This document shows, in pieces, positions 4,323 through 38,714 of a DNA stretch of 53,788 bases; position 1 is the first letter of the stretch, and each line of letters begins with the position of its first letter. Made by a program: the position numbers and the translations under genes. The notes under the pieces are model-generated. The model had not been told where the DNA came from. It searched no databases and saw nothing but the letters and a program-made list of their open reading frames with translations. The stretch spans positions 1 to 53,788 of the forward strand of contig JAISTQ010000060.1 in the NCBI GenBank assembly GCA_031272505.1. Direction: 5' to 3'. Source of the stretch: Propionibacteriaceae bacterium. Lineage in GTDB: Bacteria; Actinomycetota; Actinomycetes; Propionibacteriales; Propionibacteriaceae.

Positions 4323-4391
4323 CTGGTGGACGACATAACCCTTCACCGGGTAACCTGACTGCATCCCATCCAGACTTCCAGGAGGCACATC

Positions 4392-5240: not shown

Positions 5241-5290
5241 GTTGGGCTAGAGATCATCAAATTGTCATCAGAATCAACCGGCGGCAACCC

Positions 5291-5348
5291 AAGCTGACCG
5301 TCTAGAATCAGACCCGGAGATTGACCGATTTCCCTTGTGAACCCAGGG
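5291..5348. repeat. Direct repeat A, copy 1
   Basis: About 57 bases closely match 8814-8870; the last 35 or so (GGAGATTGACCGATTTCCC and onward) are identical. Copy 1 lies left of the tRNA-Pro fragment; copy 2 lies just before the 485-residue gene. Confidence 0.85.
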
Positions 5349-5398
5349 AACCGTCACCCACCGCAAGTGACCGGGGACGACCGCCAAGGGCAGGAATG

Positions 5399-5513
<115 letters not shown>

Positions 5514-5514
5514 T

Positions 5515-5558
5515 AAAACCCCTAGTCAACGCCTTGTTGACTAGGGGTTTTTTGTTTT
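5515..5558 (+). terminator. Rho-independent terminator
   Basis: AAAACCCCTAGTCAAC and GTTGACTAGGGGTTTT form a perfect 16-bp stem with a GCCTT loop, followed by a T-rich run. It sits 80 bases after the tRNA-Pro fragment. It may be the original tRNA-Pro terminator, separated from the gene by the integrated element. The A/T symmetry would let it work on both strands. Confidence 0.85.
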
Positions 5559-5571
5559 GGGTGACCGTCTC

Positions 5572-5619
5572 AAAACGGGCGGGTACACAACGGGTACACA
5601 TCAGCCAACGGCGAGCGCG
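5572..5619. repeat. Direct repeat C, copy 1 with tandem GGGTACACA
   Basis: Matches 10197-10244 with one mismatch. It contains two GGGTACACA copies at 5581-5589 and 5592-5600. Short tandem motifs of this kind next to att sites can be integrase arm-binding sites; that role is inferred. Confidence 0.7.
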
Positions 5620-5778
5620 GGCGTACGGCTTGTGCCCACAGCATCCGTCACCACGTCTAGGCGGTCTGGGAACAAGTGCCCGTAGAGATCGAGCGCTTTA
5701 GAATGCGACGCTGTCACGTCCAAGTTATCTTCCGTCGCCGAGCTACTGCGAAGCGCAGTATCGACGCGGCTGTCGCTG

Positions 5779-6063
5779 CTATAGACGCGGAAGGGTTTGG
5801 ATGAGTTCCATGATCGCCGAGCCTCGCCAGACTGGATATCCCTTGTGATCTGAGCTCGTCCGGTGGAGAATTCTTTCGAAACGACTGCCCATATCGCCCG
5901 TTGCCGACAGATAGTCGTCTCCCGCATACGCGCTACCCTGCACACCTTGCCATTCAAGTCTGACCTTGTCCTTGTATCCCTTCGTGACCGGCATCAACTC
6001 GAATCCTCGATCCTGTAACGCTGTGGCGATCTCTTTTTGAGTCATTGCTTCTCGGTATCCCAT
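5779..6063 (-). CDS. Small protein of unknown function
   Basis: Encodes 94 residues starting MGYREAMTQKEIATALQDRG. I chose the ATG at 6063 because GAAAGG precedes it; an ATG at 6111 would add 16 residues without a ribosome binding site. No family recognised. The N-terminal part reads like a helical region and the middle is basic (TKGYKDKVRLEW). It follows the DUF4139 gene by 66 bases on the same strand and is probably cotranscribed. It ends about 160 bases from repeat C on the other side. Confidence 0.5.
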   Translation of the reverse strand: MGYREAMTQKEIATALQDRGFELMPVTKGYKDKVRLEWQGVQGSAYAGDDYLSATGDMGSRFERILHRTSSDHKGYPVWRGSAIMELIQTLPRL

Positions 6064-6129
6064 GTGTTTCCTTTCATTGTGTGTATCTACCATGCTTATG
6101 CTCTCTTCCATATCGTCGTTCCCCAGTCT

Positions 6130-8049
6130 TCAGATTTCCAGCCCAGAGAGGAAATCCCCGAACTCCCGTGTGACTTCCTGGAGTTCCCTGCGCTCTTCGT
6201 CTTGCTTTTTTATCACCGCGTCGAGGCGAGACTCCACCGCCTCCATGCGGCGCTGGTAGTTGGCTCCCGACCTGGAATCGACGCCCACAGCCAGCAAGTT
6301 TTCACGGATGCGCGCCTGCTCATCCACCAGCCGTTTCTCGCGCTTCTCGGATTCCGACAGGGCCGCGCGCAGCTTGGCCCGGCGGCGCTGCAGATCAAGC
6401 GCCTTCTCCAGGGCGTCCTTGGCGGCACCCGCGGGGGCGGCCCCTGATGCCCACAGGAGCTTCACTTCGTCGGCCTTGGCGATTTCAACTCCCTCGTAAC
6501 GAGGGGCGACGGTCTCCACCAGCAGTTTCTTGGTTTCGCCAGGCGCGAGCTCACACTCGATGCGGAAGCATTTCTCACGCTTCTCCCCGTCAACTGGGAC
6601 GACGAGCGATTCACCTGCCTCGCGAGGATGCTCGATTAGCAGAGTCCTAGCGCTAGCGGACTCGTTTACAAGCGTATATGTCGTGCGCATCCGGCTCTCG
6701 AAGGTGAGCTTTGCCACTGAATCCACTACCTTCACGAACACCACTGAATCGTCGGACTCGGATTCGCGGCTACAGCGGACCGCCAGGTCATAGCCGTAGC
6801 CGATGATCCGCTCGGCGTTTTGGGGGACGAAGTTCAGCAGGGCGTCGCCCGCAAAGAGGTTGTCGTCGTAGACCGTAACAGCGCCAGCGGGAAGCTGGGC
6901 GCCTGTGGTGTTTTCCAGTTGGACGCCAAGTATCGGCCGGTCGGCGTCCTTTTTGATGTCGGCAGCCTGCCAGATTGACACCTTTCGCGCCTTGAGTTCC
7001 CCTTGCACCAGCGGGATCATGGTCGACTGCCCGTGTTTCAAGTTAACCGGCGTTGGGACAGTGTAAGCGAAGCTGTTCCCGGCAGTCTTTGGGACGGGAC
7101 GGTTCTGGTAATTTCGAGATTCGAACATTATCGCGCGCAGAAGACGCTCTTCGGGTATAAGACGATCTTCGGAATGATCGACCACTTCCCAGTCGGTGAC
7201 CCCGCCCGCGGCGTTGGCGTGGAAGGACTCCAACTCCTCTTCGTCGTCAGGAATGCGCCAGCGCATCTGCGGTTGAACCACAATGCGGTCTATGTGGATG
7301 GGGTCGTAGAGCGCCTGTGTGAACGACGACGGCTTCCCCACAAACAGCGATAACTGCACCTCGTCCCAGTCGGTATCTGAGGTGTTGTCGACGATCGCCC
7401 AGCCCTGGAGCGTTGGGGCATCGGTGAGGTCGAGACGGTAGCTTGCCTTCCAGACTGGAGCGGACGTCACGAATGCGAGCGAGACTTCCCGCGCGCCTTC
7501 GGCTGGCAGCTTTAGGACGGCAGGTTCGCGTTCCCCGCCCAGCTGGGCGTCCATTCTGGCCTCAATGTCGTCCTTGATGCGGTCGTCCAGTGGCCGGAAC
7601 GAGAGGATCTTGGATGCGTCGACACGCTGGATGGTCCCGTCCACGTAAAGGGAGAGTTGGGCGTAGCCGGCCTCGTCGGAGCTGCCCTTTTCCTCGTATT
7701 CGAAAACCCTGCCGACGAGCGTGCCTTCGGCGGTGGTGACCTCCAGCCGCGTTCCGCGCAGCCACTTGAATAGCTCGTCGCTGCGGACATGCTCGGGCAG
7801 GTCAGGCCCGCCCGCGCCGATCCTCGAGCTTCTCGAATGCGTACGGCTTGGGTAGGACAATGACGGCGCGACGCACGCGGGATCGTTCACGGCCAGTGAC
7901 TTCAGTACGTCGCTCATGGCTTCTTCGCCGAACGGCAGCGCGACCTGCACCGAATCGACGGCCTCGCCGCGGTGCTCGAAGAAACCGACGCCGGACGAGT
8001 AGAGCGCTACCCGTTTGAGTGGCAGTGCAAGGTTGGACAGTTTTTCCAT
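6130..8049 (-). CDS. DUF4139 domain-containing protein
   Basis: About 639 residues. The N-terminus LALPLKRVALYSSGVGFFEHRG and the later VSLAFVTSAPVWKASYRLDL (the most diagnostic part) fit the DUF4139/mucoidy-inhibitor-A-like family; function is unknown. The C-terminal ~100 residues are a charged coiled coil (LDLQRRRAKLRAALSESEK and onward). Start ATG 8049 is chosen because AGAAAGG precedes it; an upstream open extension to 8256 looks non-coding. At about 7822-7846 the reading SRTHSRSSRIG looks unlike the family, whereas a neighbouring frame reads YAFEKLED. A compensated pair of indels may be present there. No signal peptide is seen. Confidence 0.75.
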   Translation of the reverse strand: MEKLSNLALPLKRVALYSSGVGFFEHRGEAVDSVQVALPFGEEAMSDVLKSLAVNDPACVAPSLSYPSRTHSRSSRIGAGGPDLPEHVRSDELFKWLRGTRLEVTTAEGTLVGRVFEYEEKGSSDEAGYAQLSLYVDGTIQRVDASKILSFRPLDDRIKDDIEARMDAQLGGEREPAVLKLPAEGAREVSLAFVTSAPVWKASYRLDLTDAPTLQGWAIVDNTSDTDWDEVQLSLFVGKPSSFTQALYDPIHIDRIVVQPQMRWRIPDDEEELESFHANAAGGVTDWEVVDHSEDRLIPEERLLRAIMFESRNYQNRPVPKTAGNSFAYTVPTPVNLKHGQSTMIPLVQGELKARKVSIWQAADIKKDADRPILGVQLENTTGAQLPAGAVTVYDDNLFAGDALLNFVPQNAERIIGYGYDLAVRCSRESESDDSVVFVKVVDSVAKLTFESRMRTTYTLVNESASARTLLIEHPREAGESLVVPVDGEKREKCFRIECELAPGETKKLLVETVAPRYEGVEIAKADEVKLLWASGAAPAGAAKDALEKALDLQRRRAKLRAALSESEKREKRLVDEQARIRENLLAVGVDSRSGANYQRRMEAVESRLDAVIKKQDEERRELQEVTREFGDFLSGLEI

Positions 8050-8144
8050 TGGTACCTTTCTATTGGAATGGAGAGAAGCGGCGAACGCGCTTCGTTTCGA
8101 TGTGGTATTGACCCACGGGTTGAGGATGGACTCAGCCGGGCGCT

Positions 8145-8465
8145 TCAGCGCACCAAGTTCATCCGTCTGTGTTTGTTGCTGACGTGCCTCCGCTCGCCTT
8201 CGGTGGTTCCGCCCCAGATGCCGTGCTCTCGCGCTTCGAGGGCGATGGCTAGGCAAGTTACCTTGTCAGGGCAGTACCGGCAGATGTCTTTTGCGATCCG
8301 CTCACACGTCTTCTCCCCACAGTAGAACACGTTGTGGAGCCGGTAGGCGTCCAAGAAACGCTTGCACTGAGGCGGGTCGAGAGTGAACACAGGACGATAA
8401 TTGCGCGCGATCAAAGCTGCCAATCTGAGAAGGGATTTGTTCCAACTGGAACGGGAACGGCACAT
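8145..8465 (-). CDS. WhiB-family iron-sulfur transcriptional regulator
   Basis: The cysteine pattern is C-x27-C-x2-C-x5-C (PPQC ... DICRYCPDKVTC), the same spacing as in WhiB1, followed by the diagnostic turn GIWGGTTEGERR and a basic tail KHRRMN. Two more cysteines (YC, TC) lie between the first and second ligand. WhiB proteins bind a 4Fe-4S cluster and regulate transcription. The start is uncertain: ATG 8465 directly abuts a TATAAT, so TTG 8414 or GTG 8390 may be used instead; frames open further upstream belong to a decayed gene. The next gene on this strand is the DUF4139 gene. Confidence 0.85.
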   Translation of the reverse strand: MCRSRSSWNKSLLRLAALIARNYRPVFTLDPPQCKRFLDAYRLHNVFYCGEKTCERIAKDICRYCPDKVTCLAIALEAREHGIWGGTTEGERRHVSNKHRRMNLVR

Positions 8466-8510
8466 ATTATACCCGGTGATTATCACCTTCATGTTACTAT
8501 CATGTAACAT
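8466..8510 (-). promoter_or_regulatory. whiB promoter with two nested palindromes
   Basis: On the minus strand a perfect TATAAT lies at 8471-8466. Directly upstream, within the spacer region, is GGTGAT-T-ATCACC (8475-8487), and next to it ATGTTAC-N6-GTAACAT (8491-8510), overlapping where a -35 should be. The -35 itself is poor. This is the usual layout of a promoter controlled by a dimeric regulator. Confidence 0.6.
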
Positions 8511-8534
8511 CTCGATTACATTATGCCACGAGAT

Positions 8535-8834
8535 CTCGCTCCCCAGGTTCTTAGCTAATGCAGACAGGAGCAGCTGGCGGTTTGCCAGGTCGGGCAAGTT
8601 TTTGGCGAGGATGTTCCATCAGCAGGTCTATGTCGGACGTATCTGACGCCTCGCCCCGGCAACGGAGCCGAAGACGGCGAGTTGGCAAAACCTGCCTCGG
8701 GGGCCACCGCTTTGAGCACTTCGGCGCTGGCTTCCTGCACCTCGTCGGGTGGCAGTTCTGCCAACTTGGAGGCGGTGCGGAATTGCTGGCTTACTGCAGG
8801 CTTGGCTCACGCCGAGTTGACCCGCTAGAATCAA
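8535..8834 (-). pseudogene. Decayed HTH-nucleotidyltransferase (MNT-type) gene
   Basis: Read across frames on the minus strand, recognisable pieces appear in order: GQLGVSQ (HTH-like), PAVSQQFRTASKLAELPPDEVQ, LAVFGSVAG, GEASDTSDIDLLMEHP, LPDLANRQLLLSALAKNLG. The third and fourth together give FGSVA(R)GEASDTSDIDLL, the catalytic GS-x-A-R-G-x9-SD-x-D-L signature of minimal nucleotidyltransferases. A single missing C at about 8655 (GCCGGGGC instead of GCCCGGGGC) explains the break. At least three frameshifts are needed, so the gene is dead. MNT proteins with HTH domains are often antitoxin-like. The 5' end overlaps repeat A copy 2. Confidence 0.55.
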
Positions 8835-8870
8835 CCTCGGAGATTGACCGATTTCCCTTGTGAACCCAGG
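8814..8870. repeat. Direct repeat A, copy 2
   Basis: Second copy of the repeat at 5291-5348. Here it is followed after 18 bases by the start of the 485-residue gene instead of by a tRNA-Pro fragment. Confidence 0.85.
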
Positions 8871-8888
8871 TAATGCCAGGGAGTTAAG

Positions 8889-10346
8889 ATGAGCGAAGAA
8901 ATCCAGCTATATTACGACGGCGACGGGTTGCTGGTGCTTGGGGAGGCCGAAGCACTTGAGCGGTTCATCGCATCAGAGGACTTGCCTTCCGAGGCCCAAT
9001 GGCCACTCAAACCTTCAGAAGCGTTGAACGTCGCTGGATATGTCGCTCAGGTCGGGGCGACGGTCGCGGAAAACTCGGGGCGCTGGATGAAGCTGACTAG
9101 CAATTCAGCTGAACTCATCAAGAAGTACGGGCTTATGGAATCCGCTACAGATGGCCTCAAGTATGGCGTTATCGGCGGGGGCAAGCACGGGAAAATCAAG
9201 GCACTCACCCAGTTCGAAAAGGGCACACTTGCCAGCCCTGCTCTTTTGGCGGGGGTGGGTGGCGTCATGGCGCAATTCGCAGCGCAGCAGGCGATGGCGG
9301 AAATCACCGACTACCTGGAGAGGATCAGCGCCAAAGTCGACGACATACTCCGTTCACAGAAGGATTCCTATTTAGCAAAGGTCATGGCTGCCGACACTGT
9401 TGTCCGGGAGGCATTCACCATTCGAGTAGCCGTAGGCGGAGTCCCAGAGGTGGCTTGGAGCAAGATTGACGACGTGCCAACCATCGTCGCCGAAGCACAG
9501 GCTTACGCGCTGCTCCAACTGGATGGAGAGGCTACGAAGCTGGAGCAGGAGAGAAACGTGGAATGCCTTCCCACCCTAATGAAGGAAACCTTGCCAAAGG
9601 TGTTGGAATGGCTTGCGGTTCTGGCTTATTGCGAGAAGCTGAAGAACGCACTTTCCGTGCTTGAGCTTGACCGGGTTTCGGAGACTAATCCTGAAAACCT
9701 GGAATGGTATCGCTTGGCGTTGCGACGGGCACGCCTCGATCGCCTCGACCGGGTGAACCAGAGCACAAATGCCTTGCTCAACAGGGTGAATGACGCTGCC
9801 GAACTGGCAAATGAATGGGTACTGCTTCACCCGTTTGCAGGCCCGCAAACGGTTCAAGCGAGCAACCAACTGGCCGCGACGGTCACGGAATTCCGTGTGC
9901 AACTTGGAATCGAGAGTGAAACCCAAACCTTGGAGGCAAAGCAGTGGCTCGATGCCCTCGGTGACGTCTGGGATCAGACATTATCCGGAGCCGCAGATTT
10001 GGTCGGCCAAACTGTGTCCGTTTTCGGCGGTGGGGCCGAAGCGCCCAAGGAGCTCTCCTCATCAGCCATGGATGGCAGCGGAGATACCTGGCAAATAGAG
10101 CGGCCTGTTCACGCAAATGACACGAGTGAGAGGCGCGTGCCAAACCACCGGTTTGAGCACATGACCGAGCGAGGAGGGGTTCAACCACACCCCCAAAAAA
10201 ACGGGCGGGTACACAACGGGTACACATCAGCCAGCGGCGAGCGCGAGGACGGTGCCGAAGTAGCCAAGTCAACAAATCGCCATCAGAATGGGCTGCGCCT
10301 GAGCGTGGCTTCAGGCCTGATTGTCGAACCCGTCGAGATAGAATGA
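8889..10346 (+). CDS. Protein of unknown function, 485 residues, tail encoded by a repeat
   Basis: ATG 8889 follows GGGAG. No family is recognised with confidence. Visible features are an acidic N-terminus, a stretch of small and hydrophobic residues around 115-140 (LASPALLAGVGGVMAQFAAQQ), an amphipathic helix (ITDYLERISAKVDDILRSQKD) and a long mostly helical middle (about 160-380). The helical, weakly hydrophobic layout would suit a membrane-acting or phage-defence cargo protein, but that is speculation. From residue ~412 the protein is translated from repeats B and C copy 2, so the last ~74 residues are probably not native. The gene is bracketed by repeat copies that elsewhere surround an att fragment, suggesting cargo insertion. 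Confidence 0.6.
   Translation: MSEEIQLYYDGDGLLVLGEAEALERFIASEDLPSEAQWPLKPSEALNVAGYVAQVGATVAENSGRWMKLTSNSAELIKKYGLMESATDGLKYGVIGGGKHGKIKALTQFEKGTLASPALLAGVGGVMAQFAAQQAMAEITDYLERISAKVDDILRSQKDSYLAKVMAADTVVREAFTIRVAVGGVPEVAWSKIDDVPTIVAEAQAYALLQLDGEATKLEQERNVECLPTLMKETLPKVLEWLAVLAYCEKLKNALSVLELDRVSETNPENLEWYRLALRRARLDRLDRVNQSTNALLNRVNDAAELANEWVLLHPFAGPQTVQASNQLAATVTEFRVQLGIESETQTLEAKQWLDALGDVWDQTLSGAADLVGQTVSVFGGGAEAPKELSSSAMDGSGDTWQIERPVHANDTSERRVPNHRFEHMTERGGVQPHPQKNGRVHNGYTSASGEREDGAEVAKSTNRHQNGLRLSVASGLIVEPVEIE
10122..10193. repeat. Direct repeat B, copy 2
   Basis: Copy of 5435-5505, here inside the 3' end of the 485-residue reading frame. The tRNA-like end and the terminator that follow copy 1 are missing. 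Confidence 0.85.
10197..10244. repeat. Direct repeat C, copy 2
   Basis: Copy of 5572-5619, again with tandem GGGTACACA. It follows repeat B directly because about 70 bases present in copy 1 (tRNA-like end and terminator) are absent. Confidence 0.75.
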
Positions 10347-10350
10347 GTCC

Positions 10351-10536
10351 ATGGTGACGAACCCGGCTATTCTGAAACGGTTGTCCGACTCGGCGGCGGG
10401 TTCGGTGCGCGCGGAGGGCGGTGCCCCTTCTATTGAAGCGCAGAAGGCAGTTGCTGATGTGTTCGCCGGGCGCAAGTCCCCTGATGTCGCTATGCGGGAG
10501 GTTGTGAACCGCTATAAGGCTAAGCCGTCTCGCTGA
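10351..10536 (+). CDS. VbhA-like antitoxin of a Fic toxin
   Basis: 61 residues. The pattern SVRAEGGAPSIEAQKAVADVFAG followed by a short helix with REVVNRYKA resembles the VbhA-type antitoxins that hold Fic AMP-transferases inactive through an S/T-x-x-x-E-G/N helix; SVRAEG fits that helix. The last base of its stop overlaps the first base of the following ATG, the normal order for vbhA-fic modules. The partner is broken (next entry), so the antitoxin may be a relic. Confidence 0.65.
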   Translation: MVTNPAILKRLSDSAAGSVRAEGGAPSIEAQKAVADVFAGRKSPDVAMREVVNRYKAKPSR

Positions 10537-10905
10537 TGGGGTTGGACGACCAGTACGAAATCACAAAGGACCCTTACGTCGATCCGAACTCGGGTGCCCT
10601 TCGGAACCTGCTGGGTATCGCCGATCCGGTTCTGTTCCATGAGGCCGAGCAGGCCATCAGCTACATAGCCATCTCAATTCTGCTTGCCGAGCAGCCTTTC
10701 ACGTTGGAGCAGATCGATTTTGATGCGCTCAGGGATTGTGCACCGCCGAGTCTTCGGCGAGGTGTTCGAGTGGGCTGGCGAGCTGCGTACCATCGAGATT
10801 AGCAAGGGCAACACGCGCTTTGCGTTCAGCCAGTACCTTGACACGCTCGGCCCGGACATATTCGCCCACTTGGCCGACGAGGACTGGTTGCAACCAGTTC
10901 CGTAG
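10536..10905 (+). pseudogene. Frameshifted and truncated Fic toxin gene
   Basis: The first frame (10536-about 10735) encodes YVDPNSGALRNLLGIADP, typical of the Fic N-terminus, through LEQIDFDALRD. The sequence then continues in another frame as HRRVFGEVFEWAGELRTIEISKGN, the conserved Fic helix region, and ends at WLQPVP (stop 10903-10905). One extra base at about 10737-10740 explains the shift. The catalytic HPFREGNGR motif is absent, so even with the frame restored the protein would be dead. This is the toxin half of a VbhA-Fic module in decay. Confidence 0.75.
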
Positions 10906-11314
10906 ATCGTCGGATTTGACTGCCGTCTTGCAAGTTGTCGATGCGGAAGCGCTTCGGGAAGAGGCTGAAGTCGACCAGTTGCCCGGAACCTTGGAACAGA
11001 GAGCTCTCAATCAGCATCCGGATGGTGCATCTCCACCGCTCCAGCCACATCACGAACCCACGCAGCACCAGACGACGCCAGTGGCGCAAACTACTCAATA
11101 GATGACGAAATAGGGCCTCTGTGGAATCCGTTGAGTAGTTCTGTGGCGGTCAGGATAGGCTGGGAGGCTGCCATAACCGCCTTAAGTGCCTCCGTTTGAC
11201 TACATAAGGCGGCACAGCCATACGATTAACCGCCGTAAGTGGAGGGCGGAGGCTGGGAAGGCAAGTGCCTCCTCGCATAAGCGAGGTGGCACGTTAGTTT
11301 GGGGGGGGGGGTGA
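10906..11314. other. Non-coding stretch after the fic remnant
   Basis: No gene supported. A minus-strand open frame (11098-10826) has no recognisable domain. The stretch holds an inverted repeat CCGCCTTA ... TAAGGCGG (about 11180-11212), a compact hairpin CCTCGC-ATAA-GCGAGG with flanking GCC/GGC (about 11266-11290) that may terminate the minus-strand gene on the right, and a run of 11 G at 11301-11311. Confidence 0.4.
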
Positions 11315-12268
11315 TTAGGTGAGTGGATCGAGGCAGCCGGTGATTACCACTGTCTGGTCCGTGGGTCGGACGTCGACAGACACCGTGGCGCCGGGGACTT
11401 CGGTGGAATAAACCCGGTAATCGGCGTTCGGAAGCCCTCTGTTAATGTTGATTGAGCAGTAAATATTGTTTTCTGAAGGCGCTTTGAAGGTATAGGTACC
11501 GGGCTGGATGTCAGTACCCACCTGCAGATGATTGTCCTTGTAGTTGACGTGTACACGCGTGACAGCCGTAGCTTTGGAGGGGAGGGTGAAGGGGGAAAAT
11601 GCGATGTCGAAGTAAACGCTCGTACCCGCAGTCGGCTCGTTAGTGCCCCAGCCGAGGAACGGCCTCCATTCCCAAGTTACAGTCTTCGAATACGACGTTT
11701 TGTTAACCATCTGCAAACTCCCGTCCGTCAAACTGTACAGAGCATCCGCAGATGAACCATCGGTACGGAGTCCGCCTCGGAAAGCGTGCAACCACGGATA
11801 AGTCACCTTCGTCTTTCCCTTGTAGGAAGCAGTCAATTTGATGGACCAGTAGTTGTAAAGGTAGACGTCCACGTTGGTTTTGTTTATCGTCAAGCCACTC
11901 GACATCGCGGTGACGGTCTTGGAGGCCGAGGCCTTCTTGAACTTGCTGTTGCCCGCGAATTTGGCCACCAGCTTGTGGGTGCCGCCGGCGAACTTGCTGG
12001 GTAGCTTGATGGTGGCCTTGCCCGACTTCAAGGTGGCCGTGCCGATCTTCTTCTTGGAATCGTAGAGCGTCACTTTGCCGGTGGCTTTCTTCGACCCGGC
12101 CTTGACGGTGATGGTGATGGCGGTGCCGCCTTTGACTTCGGTGACGCCCTTGGGCAGCGAGATGGTCACCTTGGTGGCTGCCGCCGCTTGGGCGTTGGTC
12201 GCGGGACTCGACACCAACAGGCTGGCGGCCAACGCTGCGGCCGCTGCCATTGCCAGTGCTTTCTTCAT
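11315..12268 (-). CDS. Secreted protein with bacterial Ig-like domain
   Basis: 317 residues with a Sec signal peptide (KK followed by an alanine-rich core, cleavage near AQA-AA at about 27-30). A lysine-rich Ig-like domain spans about 31-120 (TKVTISLPKGVTEVKGGTAI to SKFKKASASKTVTA), of the type seen repeated in actinobacterial surface proteins. The C-terminal ~190 residues are unrecognised, Tyr/Thr-rich, and contain two cysteines (YCS and TGC) that could pair. No LPxTG, transmembrane anchor or lipobox is visible, so it is probably released. An AGGAGG precedes ATG 12268. It resembles the Ig-like sequence at the right edge of the window. Confidence 0.75.
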   Translation of the reverse strand: MKKALAMAAAAALAASLLVSSPATNAQAAAATKVTISLPKGVTEVKGGTAITITVKAGSKKATGKVTLYDSKKKIGTATLKSGKATIKLPSKFAGGTHKLVAKFAGNSKFKKASASKTVTAMSSGLTINKTNVDVYLYNYWSIKLTASYKGKTKVTYPWLHAFRGGLRTDGSSADALYSLTDGSLQMVNKTSYSKTVTWEWRPFLGWGTNEPTAGTSVYFDIAFSPFTLPSKATAVTRVHVNYKDNHLQVGTDIQPGTYTFKAPSENNIYCSININRGLPNADYRVYSTEVPGATVSVDVRPTDQTVVITGCLDPLT

Positions 12269-31214: not shown

Positions 31215-31338
31215 GGAACAAGTGTGGCATGTTTAATTGATTACCGCTTTCGACGCGCGGCTCATGGTCACCCCCTGATCGACCGTACGCCATACCCCAG
31301 GTGGCAAAAAAACGAAATGAAGGGAATAAGGAGCCGAC

Positions 31339-34300
31339 TTGCGTCGTTCTATTCACGTGCGAAACTTTTTCGGACACGTGCAACGTGTGAAGCAGGGGTG
31401 CCTGGGGGCGCTCGTGTTTGCGCTGCTCGTCGCCGGCCTGCCGCTGTCTCAGGTACCCGCGGTGGCCGACCCGTCCACCGACTGGCCTTCGGGCACGTCG
31501 GACATGATCCCCGTCTACTTCACGGATCGGGATCTGGACGCCAACTCCGACAGCGTGCCCGATGTCACCAACCTGCCCACCGACTGGGTCACGGATGAGT
31601 TCGTCGACGGCTACATCCCGATGGACGTTCCGGGCATCACCGGTTCGCTCACCAATGGGTGCTGGCCGATTCCGGACACCGAGCCGCAGTTGCGCGGCGG
31701 CTTGGAGCTGAGCCATTACCGTCTCTATGCGCTGCGTCCGTTCGGCGGCTGGGTCTATGTCGGAGATTTTGAGCCCGGCGATTGTGTGCCGCAGGAGTCA
31801 CTTGATGATCCCAGCATCGGAGTGAGCATCATGCCCAATCGGGTGAACCTCACCGGCGTCTACACCTACACCGTCACCTACCTGGACCACACGGACACCG
31901 AAACCGTCTACTACCCCTTCGACCACTCCCAGACCGGCACCGCCTGGGGTTATGCCACCCCGCTGGGCACCGACTGTGACGGCCAGCCCGACGGCTGCAC
32001 CACCGCGGCCGGCATCCGCTTGGCCAACGCCCCCGCCTCCAGCCAGACCTTCCTCGGCTGGCATGTGGACGTGGACGGCAACACGCTCGGCACGCTCTAT
32101 CAGCCGAGTGACACCATCAGTTTTGATTTCCTGCTCAGCAGCGGTTTGAGCCAGGGCAACATCAGCGTCGTTCCGGTATTCGACGGCGCCAGCCCCTCCC
32201 CCTCGCCGTCTCCCTCCGAGAGCACCTCCCCCAGCCCCTCCCCGTCGCCTTCCGAGACCGACACCCCGGACCGCGAGCGCGACGGCAAGCTGACGCTGGA
32301 GAAATACGCGCTGCGGAAGGTTCCGGGCGCTGATTGCGTCTTCCCGCCGGTCAGCCAATACGACGTGTTGGAAGGCCACCGCGACGACTACACCAACGAC
32401 GATCCGATCACCTTCGATCCCACCTGCGTCGAGGAGATTCCGCCTGGCTCGTCCATTCCGGACGGCAGCGACATCACCTGGGTCTACCGGGTGTACAACG
32501 ATTCTGACGACACCTTCTACCCGCACTATCCGCCGGACGTCCAGATCACCATCCACGACGACCGCCAGGGTAGCTGCGTGCTGGAGGTCTATCCGGACGA
32601 ATTCCCGCCGCACGATTGGGACATGTGCGGTATCTCCGGCAAGCCGAACTTCTCGCCGGTGGGCATTGAGGCCACCTCGCAGGTGATCCGCGTCTACGAC
32701 GGCACCATCAACGCCGAACTGCCGGGCGTGGAGCTCACCAACGTCGATCCTGATGACGACGTCACCTTGGATTACTCGCAGGCGAAGTGCTACTTCGACA
32801 AGAAGGACGTCTCCAACTCGCGGGTGGTGAGCTGCACCGGCTTCTCGTTGACCGGCCCGGATGCCGACAAGTACGAGCTGCCGGATAATTACATGCTCAT
32901 CGTGCACCACGCGGTGATCCTGCCCAAACCGGCCAAGCTGCGGCTCGACATCGTGAAATATGACGACGGCCGCACTTGGCTCACCCCGTCCACCTACGAT
33001 TCGATCTGGACGCCCAGCTGGTCGGGCCTGGTGGCCGGCGAATCGCTGAACGCCACCTGGAGCGGCACCTTCAACTTCGACAATATGGTGCTCGGCCCGG
33101 ATCACCCGGTCACCGGCGGCAACGTGAGCTTGGGCGATGGGCTGGACGGTACCGGCGACTTGGACAACTACTCCATCACCACCGAGGTCGTGGGCGAGCT
33201 GCGCTATTCGTCCATCGTCGACCTGACGGTGAACGTCACCAGCACCGGGCAGACGATCGCGTTGAACCGGTACTTCAATACCGACGACGTCATGGTGCAG
33301 TGGAACGACACCACTGTTGAAGGCAGCAACGACGAGTATCCGTTCGACGCCGCCAAGACCCATACCTTCACCCAGCCGGGCACCTATGTGGTGCGCTTGG
33401 TGTCCCGGATCCACGTCAATCCCTACCTGCCTTCGCCGTCCGGTTGCGGTAACCCGCTGGTGCCGACCACGGGTACCACGGTCAGCTCCGTGCGGGTCAC
33501 CCGGTTCCCGCCGCTGAAAGACTTCGTGAGCGCCGGTTCCGTCACCTACGGGAATGCCAAGGCCAACATGATGTGCGGTTTCAACAACGGCGGCGCGGTG
33601 CTTGACTTCGTGGCGGGCTCGCTGGACACCAAGTGGATCGTGACGGCTGAGGGTAACTTCTTCCAGAATTTCAACAAGAACGGTACGTTGACGAGCCTGC
33701 CCGCTGGTTCGTTGGACACGTCCAACATCGAAGAGACCGTCGGCGCCAACTTCTTCTCCTCGTTCAACGAGAACGGCTCGCTGACGCAACTGCCCGACGG
33801 CGCGCTGAAGACCAACAACATCAAGGCAGTGAACGGCAACGGCATGTTCTTCGCCTACTTCAACCGAAACGGCAAGTTGACCAGCCTGCCGGCCGGGTCG
33901 ATGGTGTTGGACGGCATCAAGAACTTCCGCCAAGGCGCGTTCTACGGCTTCAACAATAACGGCGCGCTGACGCAACTGCCCGTCGGGTCCTTCAATATGA
34001 CCAACGCCACCGCCGCCAGCGGAAACATGTTCTGCTACGAGTTCAACCGCGGCGGAAAGCTGACCAGCCTGCCGGTGGGGTCATTCGACATCTCCAACAT
34101 CAAGGACTTTGGCAATGGCTTCTTTGGCCACTTCAATTCCTGGGGTGATTTGACGTCGCTGCCGGCGGGTTCTTTTAGGTTGAACACCGAGAAAACAACC
34201 ATCGGCACGGGCTTCTTCAGCAACTTCAACAACACCGGCAAGCTGACATCGCTGCCCGCCAACTCCTTCAACATCGGCCACATCACGAGTGCGTCGACCG

Positions 34301-34821
34301 ACTTCTTCAGGCAGTTCAACGAGTTCGGTGAGCTGACAAGCTTGCCGACGGGCAGCTTCAACACGTCCGCCTTGACATCGCTGGACAACTGGGCTTTTGC
34401 CGAATTCAACAACGGGGGCAAGCTCACCAGCCTTCCCGCCTCCAGTTTCGGCTTTGGATCACTCAAGACGGTAACCACCCATTTCCTGTGGAGCTTCAAC
34501 AAGAACGGCCCGATTACCGCGATCCCGGCGAACTCCTTCAACCTGTCGTCGATCACCAGCGCGGGAGACCATTTCATCTCCTACTTCAATGCCAATGGCC
34601 GGATGACGAATGTGAGCAGCTTCCGCTTCCCGAAGTTCACCTCCACCAGCCAGATCGGGGCAGAGTCCTTCGAGAACTCGTTCTATTCGCTGTCCTACAC
34701 CATCACCAGCCCCACATCCATGTCCACCATTGTGAACGGTTCCGTCGCGCCGAGTACCATGCGCGGCACATTCAGTTCCAACCAACCCGGGGTCACTTCG
34801 TTGGCCACCAACTGGCGGTGA
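31339..34821 (+). CDS. Large secreted surface protein with twelve FN..G.LTSLP repeats
   Basis: 1160 residues from TTG 31339, preceded by AAGGAG. A long basic n-region and hydrophobic core (22-45) form a signal peptide. The N-terminal part (about 46-285) leads to a Ser-Pro linker (about 286-314), then two or more adhesin-type Ig-like domains (about 315-735; KLTLEKYALR and ITWVYRVYND). From about 743 to 1110 run twelve ~30-residue repeats, consensus FFxxFNxxGxLTSLPxGSFxxxxI. The C-terminus has no LPxTG, membrane anchor or lipobox, so attachment must be non-covalent or via partners. It is first in the SipW cassette; the next gene starts 5 bases later. Confidence 0.85.
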   Translation: MRRSIHVRNFFGHVQRVKQGCLGALVFALLVAGLPLSQVPAVADPSTDWPSGTSDMIPVYFTDRDLDANSDSVPDVTNLPTDWVTDEFVDGYIPMDVPGITGSLTNGCWPIPDTEPQLRGGLELSHYRLYALRPFGGWVYVGDFEPGDCVPQESLDDPSIGVSIMPNRVNLTGVYTYTVTYLDHTDTETVYYPFDHSQTGTAWGYATPLGTDCDGQPDGCTTAAGIRLANAPASSQTFLGWHVDVDGNTLGTLYQPSDTISFDFLLSSGLSQGNISVVPVFDGASPSPSPSPSESTSPSPSPSPSETDTPDRERDGKLTLEKYALRKVPGADCVFPPVSQYDVLEGHRDDYTNDDPITFDPTCVEEIPPGSSIPDGSDITWVYRVYNDSDDTFYPHYPPDVQITIHDDRQGSCVLEVYPDEFPPHDWDMCGISGKPNFSPVGIEATSQVIRVYDGTINAELPGVELTNVDPDDDVTLDYSQAKCYFDKKDVSNSRVVSCTGFSLTGPDADKYELPDNYMLIVHHAVILPKPAKLRLDIVKYDDGRTWLTPSTYDSIWTPSWSGLVAGESLNATWSGTFNFDNMVLGPDHPVTGGNVSLGDGLDGTGDLDNYSITTEVVGELRYSSIVDLTVNVTSTGQTIALNRYFNTDDVMVQWNDTTVEGSNDEYPFDAAKTHTFTQPGTYVVRLVSRIHVNPYLPSPSGCGNPLVPTTGTTVSSVRVTRFPPLKDFVSAGSVTYGNAKANMMCGFNNGGAVLDFVAGSLDTKWIVTAEGNFFQNFNKNGTLTSLPAGSLDTSNIEETVGANFFSSFNENGSLTQLPDGALKTNNIKAVNGNGMFFAYFNRNGKLTSLPAGSMVLDGIKNFRQGAFYGFNNNGALTQLPVGSFNMTNATAASGNMFCYEFNRGGKLTSLPVGSFDISNIKDFGNGFFGHFNSWGDLTSLPAGSFRLNTEKTTIGTGFFSNFNNTGKLTSLPANSFNIGHITSASTDFFRQFNEFGELTSLPTGSFNTSALTSLDNWAFAEFNNGGKLTSLPASSFGFGSLKTVTTHFLWSFNKNGPITAIPANSFNLSSITSAGDHFISYFNANGRMTNVSSFRFPKFTSTSQIGAESFENSFYSLSYTITSPTSMSTIVNGSVAPSTMRGTFSSNQPGVTSLATNWR

Positions 34822-34826
34822 TCACC

Positions 34827-35507
34827 ATGAAGTTGAAGCATCGATTGATCATCGCCTCGCTGGCCGCCGTGGTGGCCGGGGCTTCCACGTGGGCGCTGTT
34901 CACCCAGTACGCCACCTCGGGAGCGATCAGCATCACCGCCGGCGACATGGAGTTGAACACCTGCGGTGGCGCGGACGCGGATGCCAACGGCGTCAACTGG
35001 ACGGAAAACTCCGCTGACGACGACGGCATCTCCTGGGGCAGCCCGGATGAGAACATCGGCGACTTCCAGTACACCAGCGGCGACGACCTCACCACCGAGT
35101 ACTGCCTGCGCGGCGTGCTCAAGGGCGACAACCTGGCCGGCGTGCTGGATTTGACTTGGGAAGGCAGCTCGGAGGACAGCTTCTGGCTGTACACCGACAG
35201 CAACGGCGAGGACGCTGGCGGCTTGGATCGCATCATCGCCACCGGGCACGTCGGCGACCAGATCCGGATCACCGAGAACGAGGACGACCGGCTGGCGGCC
35301 GCTTGGGGCGACGCCGAGCGGCAGTTGCACTGGGTGCTGCGCATCAACCATGCCAGCGAGTTTGACCCGGAGCACCTGCCCTATGCCACGCCGCTTGCCT
35401 CCCCGTCCGCCACTCCCACGCCGGACACGCTGCCCAGCTTCAAGATTCGACTCACCCAGACCCGCTACCCCGTCTCTGGCATCACCGGAATGGAGGCGGA
35501 AAAGTGA
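34827..35507 (+). CDS. Small exported protein with SipW-type signal peptide (I)
   Basis: 226 residues from ATG 34827. The N-terminus LIIASLAAVVAGASTWALFTQYATSGAI matches the SipW-dependent type, where a hydrophobic stretch leads to an A-x-W/F-T-type cleavage region; TAGDMELN follows. The mature part is acidic and repeats a DGISWGSPDENIG-like motif, with two cysteines (TCGG, YCLRG). A Pro/Ser/Thr stretch near 195-215 precedes a basic tail. It follows the repeat protein by 5 bases and overlaps the next gene by 4. It is a likely client of the signal peptidase 2 kb downstream. Confidence 0.75.
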   Translation: MKLKHRLIIASLAAVVAGASTWALFTQYATSGAISITAGDMELNTCGGADADANGVNWTENSADDDGISWGSPDENIGDFQYTSGDDLTTEYCLRGVLKGDNLAGVLDLTWEGSSEDSFWLYTDSNGEDAGGLDRIIATGHVGDQIRITENEDDRLAAAWGDAERQLHWVLRINHASEFDPEHLPYATPLASPSATPTPDTLPSFKIRLTQTRYPVSGITGMEAEK

Positions 35508-36241
35508 AACGCTATCTGCGACTGATCCCGATCCTGGTCGGCGTGTTGGGCATGGCGACGCTCAGCGTCTACGCCGGGCACACCTACTCCCTGTGGCTCA
35601 CCGAGCAGGATTACCAAGAGGTGGTGATCCAGCGCGGCCAGGTGGGCCTCTCGCTGGACACCGATTTCCAGGTGCAGGCTGACGCGGGCGCCATGGACGA
35701 CCTGCTCTACGTGGAAGCGGGCGACGAGCTGCACCACCTGGTCTCCACCGACGATGTGCTCGCCCCCAACGAGAAGGTCGGCGAATACTGCTTCCCGATT
35801 GACATCGCGGCGCGCGCCGACGGGAACCTCGGGCTGCGCTACCAGATCTCGTTGTCGGATGAGTTGCTGGCGGACACCGATCCGGTGTTCACCGACGCGT
35901 CCGTGCGGCTCGCCCGCGACGACAATCACGACAACCAGCCGGACGGCGAATGGATCACGCTGTCCGACACCAACCCGGATTCCGGCCCGATTGACGCGGT
36001 GCCGGCTTTGAAGAGCGAGCAGACCGCCAACGCGCGGTGGCTCGCCTGTGTGACGGCTACTCCCCATCAGGAGGAGTACCAAAACAATGCCACAGTCACG
36101 GTACATACCCAGGATGGCGAAGTGTTGAGCGCATCCGACTCGTGGCACGCTTGGTTCCGCTCGGTGAGCGGTCCCGACCTTGACCTATTGGTGGTGAGCC
36201 ACGAGGTCTATCGACCTAGTCTCGAAACAAGTGAGAGGTGA
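35504..36241 (+). CDS. Small exported protein with SipW-type signal peptide (II)
   Basis: 245 residues from GTG 35504, overlapping the previous TGA. The N-terminus (LIPILVGVLGMATLSVYAGHTYSLWLTE) has a hydrophobic signal with SLWLTE, similar to the SipW client type. The mature part has two cysteines (YCFPID, ACVTA) and a late Trp-rich segment. No known domain; the acidic, extended character resembles the other clients. It ends 71 bases before the TasA-like gene. Confidence 0.7.
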   Translation: MKRYLRLIPILVGVLGMATLSVYAGHTYSLWLTEQDYQEVVIQRGQVGLSLDTDFQVQADAGAMDDLLYVEAGDELHHLVSTDDVLAPNEKVGEYCFPIDIAARADGNLGLRYQISLSDELLADTDPVFTDASVRLARDDNHDNQPDGEWITLSDTNPDSGPIDAVPALKSEQTANARWLACVTATPHQEEYQNNATVTVHTQDGEVLSASDSWHAWFRSVSGPDLDLLVVSHEVYRPSLETSER

Positions 36242-36312
36242 CCGAAGATTCCGCAACAACTGCGGAAAGCGGAAGGCAACTATGCCAACGCAAACAAAAG
36301 AAAGGTAACCTA

Positions 36313-37155
36313 ATGAACAACTCAAAGAACACCAAGGCCAAGGGCCTGATCGTGGGTCTGGCTGGTGCCGTACTGCTCATGGGCGGCTCCACCTACGCGC
36401 TGTGGTCTGCTGAAGGCACCTCCGAAGGTGGCGCGATCACCGCTGGTGCGATGACGATCAGCACCGACGTTGCCTCCGGCATCTACGACGTGTCCACCGA
36501 CCGCAAGGATTCGGTCCAGTCCGGCACCGGCACCGACCTGTCCTCGCTGACCGCGCTGAGCTCCTGCCTGCCGTCCACCACCTACTACGGCCACACCACC
36601 GCCGCGGGTAGCTGGAACATCGTTCCCGGCGACTCGGTGATGCAGGTCTTCCCGTTCAAGGCCACCATGAAAGGTGACAACCTGGTCGCCAAGCTGACGG
36701 CTGACTTCGCCAGCCTGGCCATCACCCAAGAGACGCGTAACTCGATCAGCGGCACCATCAAGGTCTTCATGGGCGGCGAGGAAGTCTCCTCCGTCGACTT
36801 GGTGGACGCGCTCAGCACCACCTCCACCAACCTGGGCTTCTTCCAGGCTGCCAGCCAGGACTACGGCACGGACGACGGCAAGCTGCCGAAGCTGCCGGAG
36901 ACCGCTACCAACCCCAACATGTGCGTCGCCATCTCCCTCACCTGGGACAGCGCCTCCACCAGCCAGGCTTCCTCTGCCGCCGGCACCTTGGGCGATACCG
37001 AGGTGAAGGGCAGCAAGGACATGAGCGCTGACATCGTCAAGATCGCCAACGGCTTGAAGGTCAGCTTGGTCCAGAGCCGTGACGAGTCCGAGATCGACAC
37101 CTGGGCCAAGGCCAACATCAATGATTGGGACGAAGGCGAAAGCCAGTTCAAGTAA
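36313..37155 (+). CDS. TasA/camelysin-like exported protein with alternate-type signal peptide
   Basis: 280 residues from ATG 36313, preceded by AAAGAAAGG. The N-terminus (NTKAKGLIVGLAGAVLLMGGSTYALWSAEGTSEGG) is the clearest SipW-type signal in the cassette, with STYALWS at the cleavage region, and the start of the mature part (GGAITAGAMTIST) fits the peptidase M73/camelysin/TasA-like group. TasA-like proteins form fibres in biofilm matrices. An in-frame GTG at 36238 would add 25 residues without a signal and is not preferred. The signal peptidase gene follows after 18 bases. Confidence 0.8.
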   Translation: MNNSKNTKAKGLIVGLAGAVLLMGGSTYALWSAEGTSEGGAITAGAMTISTDVASGIYDVSTDRKDSVQSGTGTDLSSLTALSSCLPSTTYYGHTTAAGSWNIVPGDSVMQVFPFKATMKGDNLVAKLTADFASLAITQETRNSISGTIKVFMGGEEVSSVDLVDALSTTSTNLGFFQAASQDYGTDDGKLPKLPETATNPNMCVAISLTWDSASTSQASSAAGTLGDTEVKGSKDMSADIVKIANGLKVSLVQSRDESEIDTWAKANINDWDEGESQFK

Positions 37156-37173
37156 GAAATAAGGAACTCATTT

Positions 37174-37755
37174 ATGCGTAAGCATGGTTTCATCCGCGGG
37201 CTTTTGGGAGGCGTCGGCTGGGCGCTGGCGCTCTCCCTCACAGCCCTAGCAGTTGCCGCAGCCGCCGTGCCCGCCCTTCGGGGCGGGCAGGCGCTGACGG
37301 TGCTGACCGGCTCCATGGAGCCGACGTTCAGCCCCGGCGACCGGATCATCACCGAAGCGGTGACTCCGGACGATGTCCAAGTTGGTGACATCATCTCGTA
37401 TCTGCCCAACCCGGACGATCCGGAGTTGATCACCCACCGGGTGATCGGTATGCGTCTGGGCGCCGATGGGGAGACCACCTTCGTGATGCAGGGCGACGCG
37501 AACAACGCCGTCGACCCGATCGTGCAAGGCAAGCAGATCCGCTACCGCTACCTCTACCACATCCCATTCATGGGCTACATCGTGGACCAGGTGGGCGGCC
37601 AGTCGGGCATGGCGGTCACGATTGCCGCGGTCGTCATCATCGGTTACGGCGTCTTCTTGGTCTTGAAACCGTCGAAGCGCAAAGAAGAGGAGCCCGCGCA
37701 AAGCGAAGCCCCCGCAGAATCCGAACATCTACCGAAACGGGCGCTCGTCGCCTAA
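37174..37755 (+). CDS. sipW: SipW-like (archaeal/ER-type) signal peptidase I
   Basis: 193 residues. A membrane segment (about 12-35) precedes LTGSMEPTFSPGD with the nucleophile Ser47. ITHRV supplies His88 in place of the usual bacterial Lys, and GDAN (107-110) is also present. This Ser/His pattern defines the SipW/ER type of peptidase. A second membrane segment is near 145-165, followed by a charged tail. In Bacillus, SipW processes TasA and TapA. Here it sits directly after its likely clients, so the cassette is self-contained for export processing. Confidence 0.92.
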   Translation: MRKHGFIRGLLGGVGWALALSLTALAVAAAAVPALRGGQALTVLTGSMEPTFSPGDRIITEAVTPDDVQVGDIISYLPNPDDPELITHRVIGMRLGADGETTFVMQGDANNAVDPIVQGKQIRYRYLYHIPFMGYIVDQVGGQSGMAVTIAAVVIIGYGVFLVLKPSKRKEEEPAQSEAPAESEHLPKRALVA

Positions 37756-37768
37756 GGAGCAAAAACAA

Positions 37769-38566
37769 ATGAAACGTCATGGCGTGGCCGGCTTGGTAGC
37801 CGCCATCGTGCTGGCTACCATGCCTGCCGCTGTCGCCCATGCTGACGACGACCATCTCTCCAGCTATTGGGACGGCCCGACGTACAACCTGTCATGGGAT
37901 GGCAGCACTTATCCCACCGTCTCCGACACCTTCCTCGGCAACCCCGTGGTGGTCCCTGGAGACGATGTCCATCGCACCTTGAAGGTGCGCAACAACACCG
38001 ACGGCACCTGCGACCACGCGCTGGTGTCCGTAGACCTTTTCGACGAGCGGCAGGACGAGCCCGAAGGCTCCGTGAACCACGAGTTGGCCGATCTCGTCTA
38101 TCTCTACTGGGACATTGAAGGGGCGAAAGGCGAGCTGAAGTTCCGCGACGCCATCAGCGCGGGCGACACCCGGCTGACCACCTTCTCGCTCGCGCCGGGC
38201 CAAGTGGGCTCCATCAAGCTCGGCTACCGTTTCCCCAAAGCCGCGACTGGCGGCCAGTCCCACGGCAAGCCGTCCGTAATCGAATCTTTCAAAGTGCGGA
38301 TTTCCGCCACCGGCGACTGCAACCCCGGCACCGGCGGCGATCCGGATCCCGATCCGACACCCTCGCAGACTTCCACACCCACCCCGAAACCGAGCCCCAG
38401 CCCCACCGGCACCGCCACCCCGTCCCCCTCGCCGAGCATCCACCACGACCCGGACGACCCGCTGGCCTTCACCGGCGCCCGCGGCTGGCTCCCCTACACC
38501 CTCGGCGGCGCCGTCTTCCTCATCTTCGGCTTCGCCCTGCTGCGCAACCGCCGCCGCGACGACTGA
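37769..38566 (+). CDS. LAFTG-anchored surface protein
   Basis: 265 residues with a signal peptide (about 1-26, ending AHA-DD). The mature domain (about 27-190) contains a DGTCDHALVSVDLFDERQ region with two cysteines (TCDH, DCNPG) and is of an unknown fold. A Pro/Ser/Thr-rich wall spacer (about 195-230) leads to LAFTG, a hydrophobic segment and a positively charged tail (RNRRRDD), a complete sorting signal. LAxTG motifs suit class E/F sortases of actinobacteria, but no sortase is in the window. It is last of the cassette and may anchor the fibre or matrix to the wall. Confidence 0.85.
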   Translation: MKRHGVAGLVAAIVLATMPAAVAHADDDHLSSYWDGPTYNLSWDGSTYPTVSDTFLGNPVVVPGDDVHRTLKVRNNTDGTCDHALVSVDLFDERQDEPEGSVNHELADLVYLYWDIEGAKGELKFRDAISAGDTRLTTFSLAPGQVGSIKLGYRFPKAATGGQSHGKPSVIESFKVRISATGDCNPGTGGDPDPDPTPSQTSTPTPKPSPSPTGTATPSPSPSIHHDPDDPLAFTGARGWLPYTLGGAVFLIFGFALLRNRRRDD

Positions 38567-38714
38567 CCCCCCGTCATCTCGAGCCGCAACCTGAAACCCG
38601 AGTCTCCCGGCACCCCACCGCCGTCATCCTCGAGCCGCAGGCTCGGGGATCCAGTGAGCGACGTACCGAAGGTACTTGGAGCGAACAAAAAACGCGTGAG
38701 CGAAGCGAACGCCA
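38567..38714. repeat. Intergenic repeats with hairpins
   Basis: CCGTCATC(C)TCGAGCCGCA occurs twice, at 38571-38589 and 38621-38640. The second continues into a hairpin CGAGCC-GCA-GGCTCG. A further GTACC-GAA-GGTAC hairpin lies at about 38663-38675. The stretch separates the converging LAFTG and tgt genes and may terminate both. The repeat looks like a dispersed REP-type element. Confidence 0.5.

Follow-up and report, generated by a model that had tools for sequence, protein, structure and literature searches.

Among described systems, the tapA-sipW-tasA operon of Bacillus subtilis, in which a dedicated SipW signal peptidase is encoded beside substrates with an aromatic P2' residue, comes closest to the locus analysed here. 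Its TasA is a jelly-roll subunit with an N-terminal donor strand (available part of PMC9674648), and TapA is stated not to be conserved even within Bacillus (available part of PMC10151520). The sets sipW-calY1-bc_1280-calY2 of Bacillus cereus and sipW-bsaABCRSD of Clostridium perfringens likewise combine SipW with several partners, and BsaA of C. perfringens is described in accessible passages as forming filaments (PMC10151520, PMC7395162) and, by the C. perfringens authors, as lacking an LPXTG motif. In this work, we analysed 53,788 nucleotides of contig JAISTQ010000060.1 (hereafter the window) from the 2.2-Mb draft genome of a Propionibacteriaceae bacterium, in which six consecutive plus-strand genes, g1 to g6 (31339-38566), probably make up a surface-fibre cassette of the TasA/SipW kind that is complete in itself, bringing its own export peptidase, a protein anchored to the cell and an adhesin that can be exchanged.

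Unlike tapA-sipW-tasA, which has two SipW clients, the cassette encodes three, together with a C-terminally anchored TasA-like protein that has an ordinary-looking signal peptide and a large adhesin-like protein, and the model of its client g4 is not clearly that of a TasA. The accessible passages on the B. cereus and C. perfringens sets (PMC10151520, PMC7395162) mention neither a large adhesin nor an anchored partner resembling g6. Archaeal bundling pili (AbpA, 7ueg; AbpX, 9sj2) and threads (7pnb) are donor-strand fibres outside the chaperone-usher route (available parts of PMC9674648 and PMC9715654), to which the cassette has no significant sequence link, the comparison covering structures and profiles. 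No description of this actinobacterial set was found among the matches listed from open-licence papers, a scope outside which most subscription papers lie.

Gene content and recurrence of the cassette

All six open reading frames (ORFs) are open at the positions given below, as established by an ORF check of the window, and the close spacing that had been read from the sequence holds, with distances from g1 to g6 of 5 bases, an overlap of 4 bases, and 71, 18 and 13 bases. Codon-position composition is gene-like in each of them (G+C of 0.81-0.89 at third and 0.40-0.52 at second positions). The original prediction that these genes belong together was borne out by their recurrence: the same order of all six is present in one close relative (G020:C27, L032/L052) and in a second (G006:C203, L031/L051), where g1 is cut by the contig end. 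Within the genus, SipW is matched at E 1e-90 or better in 3 of 30 genomes, among them the window's own, and a fourth SipW (G013, 5.6e-62) was found with only one client close to the end of a contig, where no g6 follows. No relative was found by a contig scan that used g4 alone.

Scanning GTDB genomes with a SipW alignment yielded 66 loci, which were classified with profiles built iteratively for the clients, SipW and g6. A five-gene core consisting of two homologous clients, g3, sipW and g6 is present in 31 of these 66 loci, some of which come from near relatives such as three Georgenia satyanarayanai, and it occurs in two gene orders. The order client-sipW-client-g3-g6 is found in 19 loci (Georgenia, Cellulomonas, Brevibacterium, Paeniglutamicibacter and others), and the order client-g3-client-sipW-g6, to which the window belongs, in 12 (also in Cellulosimicrobium and Bifidobacteriaceae bins), with both orders represented in Leucobacter and Microbacterium. 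Several overlaps of a few bases are observed among the cassette genes of the fetched loci. A chance gene order is ruled out by the recurrence in the two closest relatives and in these 31 loci. The remaining 35 loci are partial or different, including 11 with SipW but neither client nor g6 on its strand, of which several are cut by contig ends; in L109, L112 and L114 a client-like ORF lies on the opposite strand. As a separate observation, the SipW locus L106 comes from Firmicutes (a Clostridiales bin). It encodes four client-type ORFs whose matches are weak, and a more distant protein that weakly resembles g6 and bears PPQTG at the C-terminus; on this sequence likeness the system may reach beyond Actinomycetota.

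Since these 66 loci were picked by SipW, a genome-wide search for g6 served as the independent test. Among 149 genomes of one family, g6 was matched in 24 and SipW (E <= 1e-20) in 66, counts that are lower bounds as the first-look candidates of the g6 and SipW genome searches were scored in part. All 24 g6 matches lie on the same strand as SipW and at most 1.6 kb from it, half of them (12) downstream and the other 12 upstream; the 83 genomes in which SipW was not matched gave no g6 either (Fisher p 2e-10, a value that ignores relatedness). g6 was not matched in the other 42 of the 66 SipW-bearing genomes of that family. In a sparser class-wide sample, g6 was matched in 5 of 296 genomes, one of them the window's own; in each of the other four, at most about 0.5 kb separates it from SipW.

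These figures bear on an explanation in which SipW serves export in general, next to a loose set of surface proteins gathered by chance. Such a reading would accommodate the 11 loci in which SipW has neither client nor g6 on its strand and the 42 SipW-bearing genomes without a g6 match, but we consider it improbable in view of the two fixed orders in 31 loci, the several overlaps of a few bases, the existence of a relative that lacks the entire segment at the corresponding site and the specific type of client cleavage site, the last two of which are described below.

Predicted export by SipW and the anchored protein g6

The signal peptidase had been recognised from the sequence as a SipW-like enzyme of the Ser/His type, and g5 (37174-37755, start ATG, 193 aa) indeed passes the archaeal-type signal peptidase model TIGR02228 with 82.3 bits against a cut-off of 51.85, this being the archaeal/ER (endoplasmic reticulum) type. 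It remains under the cut-off of the Bacillus SipW model NF046067 (69.6 against 190 bits). Ser47, His88 and Asp108, which we take to be the catalytic residues, are invariant in a five-row alignment. A dedicated Ser/His peptidase of the SipW type thus adjoins its predicted substrates, as in the TasA/SipW systems.

Two SipW-type clients and a separate TasA-like protein had been proposed at the outset; the exported clients stood, and by sequence their number is three, namely g2 (34827-35507, start ATG, 226 aa), g3 (35504-36241, start GTG, 245 aa) and g4 (start ATG most likely at 36313, 36238 in the ORF list, to 37155; 280 aa), while g1 and g6 carry signal peptides that look ordinary by eye, with the sites AVA-DP and AHA-DD, respectively. 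The models TIGR04089 and TIGR04088 for SipW-dependent exported proteins, which name single proteins and not a system, match g2 and g4 in the signal region below curated cut-offs; for TIGR04089 (cut-off 60 bits), g4 reaches 53.6 bits and g2, queried without its first nine residues, 25.9 bits, and g3 gave no match. Cleavage is predicted at STWA/LF in g2 (mature from 34896), HTYS/LW in g3 (mature from 35591) and STYA/LW in g4 (mature from 36400), in each case after a hydrophobic stretch. That the client sites are of the SipW kind was supported across loci L051-L099, L111 and the window, using clients matched at E <= 1e-15 and locating the hydrophobic core by hydropathy: [AS]-x-[WFY] follows the core in 129 of 133 client ORFs as compared to 13 of 89 other ORFs of these loci whose N-terminus is hydrophobic, 9 of 42 g6 proteins and 4 of 37 large upstream ORFs, with part of the client likeness arising by selection, since the client profiles take in the signal region. 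Substrates with an aromatic P2' residue, a further trait of the TasA/SipW systems, are therefore encoded here, the cleavage itself being predicted. E. coli LepB handles this feature of TasA-type cleavage sites badly, as reported in the accessible part of PMC10269814. The genome also encodes a bacterial-type signal peptidase that scores over the cut-off (contig C25), which makes a division of labour between two peptidases plausible.

The clients g2 and g4 are homologous (profile comparison E 2.4e-25), and g3 shares only the N-terminal segment with them, differing beyond the first 23 mature residues. A characteristic motif of g3, YxNTATVTA (YQNNATVTV in the window), contains an Asn that is invariant in 33 of 33 aligned rows. 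At mature residue 17 of g4, Asn is found in 22, Asp in 11 and another residue in 10 of 43 rows; in the window this residue is Ala and in L053 it is Ser, which speaks against a universal rule for a bonding residue at this place. With an effective number of codons (Nc) of 31.4, the lowest of the six genes, and the highest preference for C-ending codons (0.91), both of which lie beyond those of 15 other long ORFs of the window that were compared, g4 has the strongest codon bias, which fits an abundant product; it is the probable major fibre subunit, as far as sequence can indicate. The structure model of g4, with a predicted local distance difference test (pLDDT) value of 82.8, has no clear match to TasA or other solved structures, and its N-terminus is modelled as disordered, which is consistent with donor-strand exchange. 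Searching solved structures by sequence with the g2, g3, g4 and g6 profiles gave nothing significant; the top match of the g4 profile is AbpX (9sj2), in register with the mature N-terminus at E 0.33.

The sixth gene, g6 (37769-38566, start ATG), encodes an exported protein comprising a TasA-like domain (residues 25-192 modelled), a Pro-rich linker, LAFTG (38462-38476, by eye), a membrane segment and an Arg-rich tail. The best solved matches of its model include TasA and archaeal bundling pili, so that g6, described before as an LAFTG-anchored protein, is on the model's evidence more than an anchored protein. The motif itself is present as described, but is not kept in the two closest relatives, which have GAFTG (L051) or none (L052), and g6 stays under the cut-off of the LPXTG-type models TIGR01167 (12.6 against 15.9 bits) and NF058582 (15.1 against 27 bits). 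The C-termini of many g6 homologues comprise an LxxTG-like motif, a membrane segment and a basic tail. Those of L070, L086, L087 and L095 (Microbacterium, Cellulosimicrobium) run on after the membrane segment into a Cys-containing, CxxC-like tail and have no basic-tail end. From these sequences, the common trait of g6 is C-terminal anchoring in the membrane or wall, not one motif. At E <= 0.01, Pfam matched none of 34 g6 domains, and NCBIfam gave only weak matches (three DUF11-type, one choice-of-anchor).

The sorting-like motif raises the question of a sortase-built pilus of the SpaA type with g1 as tip and g4 as shaft. LAFTG on g6, the one sortase of the genome and the VWA-like and SpaA-like domains in the leading proteins of some relatives speak in its favour, but the cassette has no sortase gene, the single PF04203 match being on contig C10, and no sorting signal is seen by eye at the ends of g1, g2, g3 and g4. 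We hold such a pilus to be very improbable, and rejected it as a candidate, because a pilin-specific sortase in the cluster was not found.

A matrix or coat without fibres, in which SipW frees camelysin-like monomers or a cell coat, with g1 and g6 as surface proteins in their own right that have only the operon in common, deserves more weight, though it too is unlikely. It draws on the g4 fold, which is not clearly that of TasA, on the divergence of g3 outside the first 23 mature residues and on the fact that polymers are inferred only. A cassette of fibre proteins is favoured over it by the very tight linkage of g6 to SipW (24/24), by the resemblance of the g6 model to a fibre subunit and by the recurrence of the core in two fixed orders.

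Leading proteins and short CLIPPER_2 ends

The gene g1 (31339-34821, start TTG, with AAGGAG just upstream) encodes an exported repeat protein of 1160 aa and putative adhesin. Behind its signal peptide it contains a CLIPPER_2-like trace at about residues 364-410, a YDG domain (442-516, over the cut-off), a PKD-like match below the cut-off and approximately ten PARCEL/BspA-like repeats of 30-31 aa, encoded by an array (33658-34542) with ten matched copies of a 60-nt unit at a spacing of 90-96 nt. The repeat model TIGR02167 scores 20.9 bits, under its cut-off of 30, and no C-terminal anchor is seen in g1. A protein of this kind had been predicted to lead the set, which is true of the window; it is not a general part of the system, since among the loci searched g1 homologues occur only in L051 (partial) and L052. 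By sequence, g1 is clade-specific and other large proteins fill the leading slot elsewhere, with VWA in L081 (over the cut-off) and in L054 and L066 (below it), SpaA-like domains in L062, L080 and L081, and a beta-helix-like appearance, by eye, in L034, L082 and L111.

What many of these leading proteins share is a match to DUF7507 (PF24346), which is the CLIPPER_2 isopeptide domain of fibrillar adhesins, with a predicted Lys-Asn isopeptide bond and an Asp, according to the available part of PMC12617251. Scanning C-terminal tails with Pfam placed eight of ten over the cut-off and L034 below it, with none in L082, and all nine matches end at profile position 72-79 of 105, at most 10 residues from the protein end. 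They stop before the position of the predicted Asn, at about 88 of 105 as computed from a table in the same source (PMC12617251, available part). When ten leading proteins were scanned as a whole, DUF7507 was found at E <= 0.001 in five and not in L052, L082, L034, L055 and L077. An alignment of 29 tails from 37 large upstream ORFs, leaving out L060, L078, L099, L101 and L102 as unrelated-looking and L052, L056 and L061 because their ends did not show the core motif, has Lys in 26 of 29 rows of the Lys column and Asp in all 29 of the Asp column, and no NxAT-like strand follows the core in any aligned tail. In g1 itself, the domain is recognisable only as a degenerate trace inside the protein: PF24346 has no match at 32230-32700, and the model built from the 29 tails matches residues 364-410 with 18.9 bits, a match reported in 0 of 500 shuffles.

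The shortening was compared with other copies of the domain in 12 genomes of one family which, being related, are not independent. Among the matches listed, DUF7507 within 5 kb of SipW ends at position 73-78 in nine of nine cases (nine genomes), and elsewhere 16 of 141 end by position 80; at E <= 1e-8, short forms make up 6/6 near SipW against 4/108 elsewhere. In the same listed matches, G354 is without DUF7507, and G172 and G471 have none near SipW. Truncation is not exclusive to these cassettes, because two copies ending at 77 (G432:C2:905637 and G482:C6:364610) do not adjoin SipW; these may have other partners. The window's own genome holds a further cassette, L034 (G000:C29:1-11134), with a beta-helix-like large protein, three client-type ORFs and SipW. 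Its leading protein has the truncated CLIPPER_2-like end with Lys and Asp, at a Pfam score below the cut-off. g6 was not found on the contig, which further along encodes an LAYTG-ended protein on the opposite strand.

The short CLIPPER_2 end, with its Lys and Asp, complements the invariant Asn of g3, and this complementarity between the sequences suggests, as a hypothesis, strand donation that is perhaps covalent. In its boldest form, which we regard as doubtful, a tip adhesin would be covalently locked on the fibre by a naturally split CLIPPER_2 isopeptide domain across Actinomycetota. The adhesin end would keep the reactive Lys and the catalytic Asp but not the Asn-bearing strand, which a SipW-released partner would supply, an arrangement equally tentative; the partner would most likely be g3, with the Asn in its CLIPPER-like YxNTATVTA strand, or the N-terminal donor strand of g2 or g4. 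Just as speculatively, a swappable adhesin and a TasA-like fibre would then be linked by a joint that occurs naturally and resembles SpyCatcher.

Genomic setting and proposed assembly

In the relative G006, the genes for tgt (tRNA-guanine transglycosylase) and a metallopeptidase overlap as TGATG, and the same two genes flank the cassette in the window. Since they overlap in G006, approximately 7.5 kb comprising the cassette and short flanks (31215-38714) can be regarded as an insert, missing between tgt and the metallopeptidase gene in that one relative; of 28 tgt loci compared from other genomes of the genus, only G006 has the metallopeptidase within the short flank. G006 has its own cassette copy on another contig. 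The right flank of the cassette (38567-38714) is an interspersed repeat with at least 57 further matches in its own genome at E <= 0.001 (with 40 scored out of 113 candidates). Most of these share 74-93% identity with it over 30-130 bases, and they occur on both strands; it is possibly a family of the repetitive extragenic palindromic (REP) or miniature inverted-repeat transposable element (MITE) kind. Between 29500 and 40000, Rfam found no known RNA element; searches by consensus gave no sigma-70 promoter-like site and seven terminator-like sites against 5.8 in shuffles, none credible, and Tandem Repeats Finder (TRF) found no tandem array. At a distance from the cassette, positions 2001-12000 have a G+C of 0.56-0.61 as compared to 0.61-0.69 in the rest of the window, and codon bias is weak in the ORFs 2820-4322 (Nc 58.0) and 8889-10346 (Nc 52.8); this DNA was perhaps recently acquired.

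In the assembly that we infer for the cassette, Sec would export g2, g3 and g4, and g5 would cut them just before the Leu-aromatic pair, a site at which poor cutting by the ordinary signal peptidase is to be expected. This would free an N-terminal segment, LWxxxxxxxGGxITAGxL, to act as the donor strand in polymerisation, with g4 as the abundant shaft subunit, its homologue g2 as a minor subunit and g3 as a junction or cap subunit. The ordinary signal peptidase would process g6, which, held at its C-terminus by sortase or a membrane anchor, would form the cell-proximal base. Having no anchor of its own, g1 would be displayed via the fibre and act in adhesion, and in many other cassettes the incomplete, Ig-like CLIPPER_2 end of the leading protein, as if awaiting a partner strand, would dock by strand complementation.

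If this holds, TasA-type fibres would extend beyond Bacillus and archaea. In actinobacteria they would have a common form, provided with an anchor of its own and with adhesins that can be exchanged, and its carriers would include named isolates of Georgenia, Cellulomonas, Brevibacterium, Leucobacter and Microbacterium. The unfinished C-terminal domain of the leading proteins could be part of a new natural protein-ligation pair, and the role of many SipW copies in Actinomycetota would be explained.

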